Made by a program: the position numbers and the translations under genes
IMG/VR virus record: IMGVR_UViG_3300034064_000176
Coordinates: 1-58,639 of that record
Strand: one strand, 5' to 3'
DNA: 58,639 nt
Origin: a virus
Notes under the pieces: generated by a model
Database searches by the model: none
The model's input: only the letters and a program-made list of their open reading frames with translations
Told to the model about the DNA's origin: nothing
Part shown: one piece after another, positions 34,751 through 37,700 of the stretch
How positions within the stretch are numbered: position 1 is the stretch's first letter
Layout: every line of letters starts with the position of its first letter

Positions 34751-37700
34751 ATGGCATCGACTGCATATCAGTACGCGACGGGAGAAGGTGGCATCGGCCT
34801 GGAGGCCATGAATCAGAATATCCGCGACTTCTTCGCGAATGCTCCGACCGAAGAAGCTACCCGCGCTGCCATGGCTCAATATGGCGTATCCGATGAGGAC
34901 ATCCGACGCGCTACTGGCAAAGTATTTGGGGATTACTTCCCAACCGGAGGCTTATCGAGCGTTTCCGCGCCCCAGGATACGGTTTTGGGTGGTCTTGCAG
35001 CCGCTCAAGATACGGTTACCGGCGCCCTGCCTGATGTTGTTTCAAGGATGGCTGGCCAAGATACTGTTTCTGGTGGCCTTTCTGTTGCTGGCTCAACCAT
35101 CCCCGGCATGGATAAACTCGTTGGGGTTGACCAGCTTGCCCTTGGGTATAACAAAGACGCAACCAATGCGGCTAATGCACAAAACATAGCCAACCAACTT
35201 TATGCGCAAGGCCAAGGGTTGATTGGTAAAACCATTTCCGGGGACCTTGCAACCCAGCTTAACAGCGCACTAAACCCGACTTACTTTGAGGGCGAAGGCG
35301 GTCTCATGCCCACCTCATCTTCGGTATTTTCGCCGGTAAGAAAGCAGGTCGGCACCGATAACGAAGGCAATCCGATCTATGAAGATACGGGTACCTATTC
35401 GGCCTTTCTGAATGCCCATGACATCGGTAACAAGGGTACGCTCCTTGGCCAGGAGGTTACGGTCGACAAGAACGGCAACATCATTGACGTTCAACTTCGT
35501 CAGGACCAGCGAGGCTCGTTTCAAAAGTCGATCGCTCCCTTGCTTAATTTCGGCGCCATGGTCGTCACCGGTGGTGCAGCAGGTCTCGGTTTGTCTCCCT
35601 TACAAGCGGCAGGTATATCGACAGCTTTACGAGCCATGGGCGGTGCCGATGTAGAAAGTCTTATCAAAAATGCCGTTACCTCTTACGGGGTAAGCACAGG
35701 CCTCGATATGGCCGCTGGGAATATTGCTTCTTCGCTAAATCTTGATCCGGGTATCGTTAGGTCTGCGCTTGACGTGGCCTATACCGCGGCAAAATCTGAT
35801 AATCCCTATGACATTATTGCCGCCGGGATGAAGGGCGTGGCTTCCGCAATGGGGGGCCGAAATGTTATTGACGAGTACAACGTCACTGGTGGGACCGGGA
35901 CGCAAATTCCTGCGACCGGTGGACTGTCTTTGGTCTCCGATACCAAGCCGGATATATCCTCGGACCTTGCCTCAAGCATTGCAAGTGCTGGTGGTCTGGA
36001 CCTTGCAGGCGGCTTGGATTTAACCAAAGGGGAGCAGGTTGCTGCGCTCCCGCTTCTTGGGATACCGGCCATTCAGCAAGGTATAGCGGCCGCTGGCGTA
36101 CTTGGTGCGCATGGCGCGGCCTTGTGGTCCGCCCTTCAAAAAGCACAAAATCCTGGCGCTGATATTCCGTGGACTATGGACTACGCAACCACGGTCCCTG
36201 ATTATGCGAATAAACCGGTTTCTGATTGGACCGAGGCTGATAAGCAGGCTTACATCAAGGACTTCCAAAAGGATATTGGAAAGTATGAGACCAAGCCCTT
36301 GTATGCCGATAAGACGCCAGCGTTAACCGTATCGTCCACAAAGCTTGATAAGCCATTCACGCCTTATAACGAATTCGACCTTACCAAGACGGCTGATCGC
36401 CCATTTACGCCTTACAACGAATTTGCCACCGACACGGTGGTTGACAAACCGTTTACGCCATACCGGGAGTTTGAAGACGTCCCGATTGACGATTACCCAT
36501 GGATTGAGAAGCCGAGGGAGGTAAAAACCACGGGTCCGGACAAGCCTGGGGGCGGTCTTTCTGGGAGCGATTCAACAGACTCTAGCAGCGCATTATCCCA
36601 GACAACAGGTGCTGATAAAGGCGGAAGCTCGTCCAGTAGCTCTAATCAAGACGCTGCCAGTAGCAATATTGACGCTCAAATCAGCAACATTACCGGCCCC
36701 ATATCTCAGCAGGATCAAGATGCCAAGCAGGCTCAGGTTGAGGGTCCGCAAAAGCCGCAAGGCCAAAATATTGCAGGTCAGTCTGATGAGGCGCTGAAGG
36801 CTTCGGTTGGCCAAACCTTTGCTGATAATCCCAATTACGTTTTTAATCGCAACGAGATAGCTAAGCTTGGTCGCGCTGGTGGGCTTAGCGACGAGAGGAT
36901 TAACAACATCCTCGGCTCGTTTACATTCGACAAGGACGGCAATCTCGTTCGCGGTGGCCCTGCGGGCGGCCCAACGGGCGGTCCGGCGGGTGGCGATGCT
37001 ACGGATGGTGGCGGCAAAGTTACAACCGGCGGCACGGATGGCGCTGTTAAGGTCGATGCCGAAACTAGCGGCGAAGTTAAGCCCGGCGAGACCAAGACCG
37101 GCGAAGCCGAAAAGCCAACCGAGGGAACGGGCTCAGGAACAGGTACAGGAACTGGGACGGGAACTGGGACAGGAACCGGCACGGGTACAGGCACCGGTAC
37201 AGGCACCGGTACAGGCACCGGTACAGGGACTGGAACCGGTACAGGGACTGGTACAGGAACCGGTACAGGGACGGGCACCGGCACAGGGACTGGGACCGGT
37301 ACTGGTACTGGTACGGGAACGGGCACGGGTACTGGGACGGGGACCGGGACTGGAACGGGCACTGGAACAGGAACTGGAACTGGGACAGGAACCGGCACTG
37401 GTACTGGTACTGGTACTGGAACTGGCACGGGCACAGGTTCAGGCAGTGGGTCCGGCAGTGGGTCCGGAAGCGGAACCGGTACGGGCACGGGAACAGGGAC
37501 TGGAACGGGGACAGGGACAGGAACCGGTACGGGAACCGGCACAGGTACAGGAACGGGAACCGGGACCGGCACAGGTACAGGAACTGGCACCGGAACGGGA
37601 ACCGGTACAGGAACGGGAACCGGGACCGGCACAGGCACCGGAACTGGGACAGGTACAGGGACCGGAACGGGATCTGGCTCGGGCGCCGGAGATGGCGGAG

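Follow-up and report, generated by a model that had tools for sequence, protein, structure and literature searches.

A single ORF of the phage genome analysed here encodes a protein of 1202 residues, in which aa 792-977 form 93 unbroken Gly-X pairs, 186 residues in all. In close orthologs the corresponding tract differs by synonymous changes, by indels of whole residue pairs and by the interchange of Gly-Thr (GT) and Gly-Ser (GS) pairs. The tract is an extreme variant of an already known type of feature, the low-complexity linker. On balance, we favor the view that it acts as a long, uncharged and probably disordered tether in an ejection-cassette protein of a podovirus-like phage, in which the alternating chain of glycine and small hydroxyl residues is selected while the underlying DNA drifts.

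Genomic setting of the tract gene

The window, i.e., the whole stretch of 58,639 bases that makes up the virus record, has ends that overlap by 1062 bases at 97% identity (1-1062 versus 57578-58639, 30 mismatches), which makes it likely that the record is an almost entire genome of some 57.6 kb. The genome may be circular or permuted, with the 30 mismatches reflecting variation among strains. The genome encodes a terminase, a portal, a major head protein with similarity to proteases, an SU10-type adaptor and a hub resembling P22 gp10, rather than the inovirus gene set in which the filamentous phage protein pIII is found. The features relevant to the tract are as follows.

30602..31231, + strand: SU10-type adaptor protein (PF24175, 1.2e-28)
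32436..34523, + strand: tail hub/stabilization protein, P22 gp10-like by similarity
34751..38359, + strand: 1202-residue ORF with the tract; proposed ejection (internal virion) protein, from gene order conserved in distant phages
34751..34945, + strand: small helical N-terminal module (aa 1-65), predicted better by AlphaFold than any other region (block pLDDT 71-89)
35501..35848, + strand: Gly/Ala-rich region (about aa 251-366), helical in a low-confidence prediction and including a hydrophobic segment (aa 261-279)
37124..37681, + strand: Gly-Thr/Gly-Ser tract of 93 pairs (aa 792-977), from the sequence and its translation
37436..37471, + strand: central block of six Gly-Ser pairs (6 of the 9 GS pairs of the tract), from the sequence
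38105..38344, + strand: conserved C-terminal domain (aa 1119-1198; [28 protein letters not shown]), common to syntenic genes and annotated tape measure proteins
38362..39336, + strand: conserved 324-residue neighbor, putative ejection-cassette protein by conserved order
39355..41118, + strand: conserved 587-residue neighbor, putative ejection-cassette protein by conserved order
41119..42372, + strand: 417-residue protein with an SLT transglycosylase domain (PF01464, 5.8e-21), at the end of the cassette

The tract gene is thus placed between the P22 gp10-like hub and the lytic-transglycosylase protein. The order adaptor, tail protein, hub, small ORF, tract gene, 324-residue protein, 587-residue protein and SLT protein is kept, wholly or partly, in distant phages (including MW202545, Caulobacter phage RW), and because of this conservation the product of the tract gene is likely to be an ejection (internal virion) protein. 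In known podophages, the ejection proteins are encoded in clusters, have a mosaic make-up and differ widely in size (PMC8954989). Those of T7 (gp14, gp15 and gp16) and P22 (gp7, gp20 and gp16) resemble the present case in the cluster next to the tail genes, the transglycosylase within the cluster, the variation in size, the mosaic domains and the need to traverse a narrow channel partly unfolded (PMC8954989). Here, too, the cluster lies beside tail genes and includes a peptidoglycan-hydrolase protein (SLT, 41119-42372), and the close orthologs vary in size and carry mosaic N-terminal modules. In contrast, no sequence homology to the T7 or P22 proteins, or to any other characterised ejection protein, was detected with PHROG and Pfam, where no family matched the ORF. 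Neither “glycine” nor “low complexity” occurs in the text of that review (PMC8954989), and a tract of this kind is not described there. Among the structural ORFs scanned (a subset of the ORFs), none around the tract gene was a long-tail gene (tail tube or assembly chaperones), and the adaptor and hub are of the short-tailed type.

The AlphaFold models were of low confidence, with a mean pLDDT of 43.7 for the N-terminal part and 52.7 for the C-terminal part. The small N-terminal module ([23 protein letters not shown]...[21 protein letters not shown]; window 34751-34945) sits elsewhere in relatives, namely in the N-terminal parts of L011 and L043, and occurs twice in L011, like a shuffled unit. 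The conserved C-terminal domain comprises about the last 85 residues. Its matches to annotated tape measure proteins, which come from phages of Arthrobacter, Gordonia and Nitrincola, are weak (36-56% over about 36-57 aa) and run through the common motif G-SDDIPA-L-GEYV-A; these proteins differ in that the context here is short-tailed, and no match was found beyond the motif.

Elsewhere in the genome, two large ORFs adjoin the terminase and portal genes: 1422-4526 (1034 aa), for which no PHROG match was found, and 4523-9292 (1589 aa), which carries the motif MYHGSKHGD close to its start. Across the window, a number of 6-bp palindromes are missing or almost missing relative to the Markov expectation, including CTGCAG (0 versus 22.5), GCCGGC (0 versus 21.2), GGATCC (0 versus 15.7), GATATC (0 versus 10.8), GTGCAC (0 versus 7.5), CAGCTG (0 versus 6.8) and AACGTT (2 versus 16.2), a depletion that suggests the avoidance of restriction sites.

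Constraint on the polypeptide

The tract contains 84 GT and 9 GS pairs, which bears out an earlier note on this DNA that had described about 83 Gly-Thr pairs and a central Gly-Ser block. Its third bases are near-uniform, and all four codons of each residue are used about equally: GGA30, GGT22, GGC21 and GGG20 for Gly, and ACA25, ACC21, ACT20 and ACG18 for Thr. None of the 93 Gly codons shows a change in the first or second position. Outside the tract, the same gene favors GGC (64 of 129 Gly codons) and ACC (37 of 72 Thr codons). The codon context of the genome was ruled out as a cause, since Gly codons that precede an A elsewhere remain rich in GGC. Palindrome avoidance was considered as well: GGTACC (i.e., GGT followed by ACC) is absent from the tract of the window and rare across the tracts of the window, L003, L010, L013 and L014 (5 versus about 22 expected in the pooled table). 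This explanation was dropped, as GGTACC is not depleted across the genome and the palindrome ACCGGT occurs often in the tract.

The tract is unlikely to be an artefact of assembly, because the longest exact DNA repeat inside the tract is 32 nt and identical tract DNA occurs in a second IMG/VR contig (L008/L027), inside 13,740 identical bases. Antisense coding over the tract was also rejected: GGNACN has no stop in any frame, and the reverse-strand ORFs are therefore by-products of composition.

Close orthologs were collected from IMG/VR with the N- and C-terminal parts of the protein as queries, the tract being left out. They range from 1102 to 1846 aa, with C-terminal parts 80-99% identical and N-terminal parts 37-91% identical. 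Every close ortholog that covers the relevant region has a tract, consisting of (GT)n, (GS)n or a GS-GT chimera of 44-138 pairs; the exception is type L011, which combines (GTQT)n with a short GT stretch. The observed types were:

L002, L008, L009, L012: 84 GT and 9 GS pairs
L001, L004, L005, L007: 86-87 GS pairs
L006, L018, L028: 53 GS pairs, followed by about 31 GT pairs
L010: 63 GT and 8 GS pairs
L003: two GT blocks
L013: 44 GT pairs
L014: 137 GT pairs over 278 aa
L011: long (GTQT)n, then GT

The tracts of the window and L002 are of equal length and show 32 differences when compared without gaps, all in the third position. Codon alignment of the two gave 10 synonymous and no nonsynonymous changes, with gaps of 2 or 4 codons only, so that the differences are best explained by cancelling whole-pair indels (2 or 4 codons) together with synonymous changes. 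The comparison with L010 yielded 29 synonymous and no nonsynonymous changes among 132 aligned codons. The pairwise codon alignment penalises nonsynonymous more than synonymous mismatches, and the zero counts lean in that direction; the fixed G-[ST] pattern is independent of it. Gaps in the tract alignments always spanned an even number of codons, Ser and Thr interchange in the tracts, and almost no other residue enters them.

The tract also recombines. The DNA downstream of the tract is 99.1% identical between L002 and L004, yet the former carries 84 GT pairs and the latter 86 GS pairs. L006 is a chimera with a 5' GS and a 3' GT half: its GT half scores 93.8 against the tract of the window (69.7 +/- 4.4 in synonymous shuffles), and its GS half scores 91.4 against L004 (66.8 +/- 8.6 in synonymous shuffles). 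The tract DNA is nevertheless identical in L004 and L005, and in L006 and L018, though their flanks differ by 0.8-6.4%; the view of the tract as hypervariable was rejected on account of such identical tracts between differing flanks.

The synonymous changes, the whole-pair indels and the swap between GT84 and GS86 argue that selection acts on the alternating Gly/small-hydroxyl polypeptide and not on the codons. The earlier proposal that the polypeptide is kept by selection is thereby sustained: first and second positions are fixed beside a near-saturated third position, and duplication would homogenise all three. The same pattern weighs against a functionless tract that arose by neutral repeat expansion and is tolerated rather than selected, as does the exchange of Ser and Thr with almost no other residue entering. 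This alternative, which draws on the lack of a tract in distant syntenic genes, is very improbable.

Origin of the scrambled codons

The earlier note had further claimed that the tract lacks long identical repeats and that slippage or recombination is avoided by selection. The first statement holds in that no exact repeat exceeds 32 nt, but tandem 12-bp duplications are far more numerous than in synonymous shuffles (5 versus 0.3), and codon runs are repeated over a greater maximum length (10 versus 6). A clear excess of 12-bp tandem copies was likewise seen in several tracts of the clade. The local hexamer entropy (H) is 3.18, versus 3.45 +/- 0.07 for independent codons, such that the tract is slightly less diverse than expected. 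Identical Gly or Thr/Ser codons at a lag of 6 bp were rarer than in synonymous shuffles in 6 of 8 clade tracts (z about -1.5 to -2.6), which share ancestry, so that these per-tract values are not independent. A simulation that combined synonymous mutation, random gain and loss of blocks, and deletion-biased slippage of perfect hexamers produced a lag-6 z of -2.1 and a lag-12 z of +0.9; it was run with few parameter settings and demonstrates sufficiency, not proof.

If the scrambling itself were adaptive, with repeated DNA being purged in order to stop slippage and recombination, the deficit of identical neighboring codons at 6 bp in 6 of 8 tracts and the identity of the L004/L005 and L006/L018 tracts despite diverged flanks would be accounted for. 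We consider this unlikely, given the strong excess of 12-bp tandem duplications, the reduced local hexamer diversity and the evident recombination of the tract. In addition, perfect DNA repeats occur near the same protein position in other phages. Selection against DNA repeats is possible but unnecessary, because neutral turnover of units and synonymous drift reproduce the codon pattern, including the lag-6 deficit; the second claim of the earlier note is therefore not supported as stated. Under the favored interpretation, synonymous drift, recombination inside the tract and the insertion or deletion of whole pairs, 6 or 12 bp at a time, would lead to scrambled codons in the absence of selection on codons, while selection would keep an alternating chain of Gly and Ser or Thr of roughly 45-140 pairs.

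Linkers in the wider family and the role of the tract

A search with the C-terminal domain, independent of the tract, yielded 80 loci. None of these carried a (GT)n tract, and about 10 had a G/S/T-rich stretch of at least 40 aa. In 65 homologs the ORF was complete enough, and many of the longer proteins carry a different low-complexity linker in the same place or close to it, upstream of the C-terminal domain; the Gly/Ala-rich hydrophobic stretches of shorter homologs, which also score as low complexity in the linker test, are not linkers. The types observed include AN/TN (L239), VNAN (L305, L306), AQ (L315), GAT (L264), PGTGVG (L243), PSGT (L261) and SGF-SG (L297). At the DNA level, the linkers of L315 and L243 are perfect repeats and those of L239, L306 and L297 are scrambled, which resembles a progression from younger to older repeats. 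Versions of the gene without a tract were found among distant syntenic genes and not among close orthologs. The family does not depend on the tract, as most homologs sharing the C-terminal domain are without a Gly-Thr tract and many lack any hydrophilic repeat. Homologs of the C-terminal domain in bacterial genome bins (L317-L324) came mostly from Burkholderiales/Betaproteobacteria bins, which gives a faint indication of the hosts that such phages infect.

Among the matches listed in two IMG/VR scans, GT or G[ST] tracts also appeared in unrelated phage proteins, including those of contigs with filamentous-phage-type genes. Small contigs (L062, L091, L120, L179 and L206), which bear Zot, G2P or Rep_trans genes, encode long GT/GS tracts within what is probably an adsorption-type protein, a parallel use in filamentous-phage-type genomes. 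Filamentous phage pIII, an infection protein, contains Gly-rich flexible interdomain linkers that are disordered and invisible in cryo-EM (PMC10175506). The likeness lies in the Gly-rich flexible linkers between domains; the virus group and the protein are different, the f1 linkers are much shorter and the two are not homologous. In a survey of prokaryotic and phage low-complexity regions covering 102 proteomes, the longest phage region was 115 aa (PMC6821194). The present tracts are of the same Gly-rich sort, and those of the window (186 aa) and L014 (278 aa) are longer. No phage case of Gly-Thr repeats was found in the literature searched.

A tether at this position would join the variable N-terminal modules to the conserved C-terminal domain. 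It may allow the protein to travel in unfolded form along the narrow channel of portal and tail or, alternatively, allow its two ends to occupy separate positions within the ejection machine. The suggestion of the earlier note, a spacer in an ejected protein, fits the position of the gene and the varied linkers of its relatives, and stays putative. The points that weigh against a tether in an ejection protein are the lack of a match to any characterised ejection protein, the low confidence of the AlphaFold models, the absence of a Gly-Thr tract from most C-domain homologs and the match of the C-terminal domain to annotated tape measure proteins, so that the present protein may have a different role.

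This last match, over about 40-60 aa, is also the basis for regarding the protein as a tape-measure homolog or head-tail length determinant, in which the tract would set a length. The SU10-type adaptor, the P22 gp10-like hub and the SLT ejection-type protein indicate a short-tailed phage, and the tract length among relatives ranges from 44 to 138 pairs, which together make a length determinant quite improbable. Slightly less remote, though still unlikely, is an ordered chain, i.e., a beta-strand-compatible or self-associating rod instead of a passive disordered linker. The strict alternation with a period of two, with no exception over 93 pairs, would suit such a rod, as would the alternating character of other linkers at the site (AN, TN, VN, AQ). 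On the other hand, hexanucleotide slippage alone yields dipeptide repeats, other relatives have repeats with periods of three, four or six or none, and Gly at every second residue disfavors ordered structure. The tract is likewise distinct from collagen-like G-X-Y repeats, which have a period of three, as its period is two and it contains no proline, and from phase-variable contingency repeats, in which a perfect unit shifts the reading frame, as its hexamers are scrambled and its indels are whole codon pairs.

A broader and rather speculative proposal, to which we give little credence, is that dipeptide-repeat linkers (GT, GS, AN/TN, VN, AQ and others) arise again and again at one site in a widespread family of phage ejection proteins. 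They would be born as perfect hexanucleotide repeats, after which the polypeptide would be kept and the codons scrambled. The alternating chain would then have a specific mechanical role in ejection, for example as an unfolded pull-through leader or as a strand that assembles across the envelope.

The tract and its counterparts in close relatives offer a natural and replicated example of selection on a long low-complexity polypeptide whose DNA is left to drift, GT and GS alleles being exchangeable at one site. The physical requirement for a chain that is uncharged, small and flexible, and roughly 90-280 residues long, thereby becomes testable in phage ejection, and codon-scrambled natural repeats of this kind bear on the design of genes for repetitive proteins.
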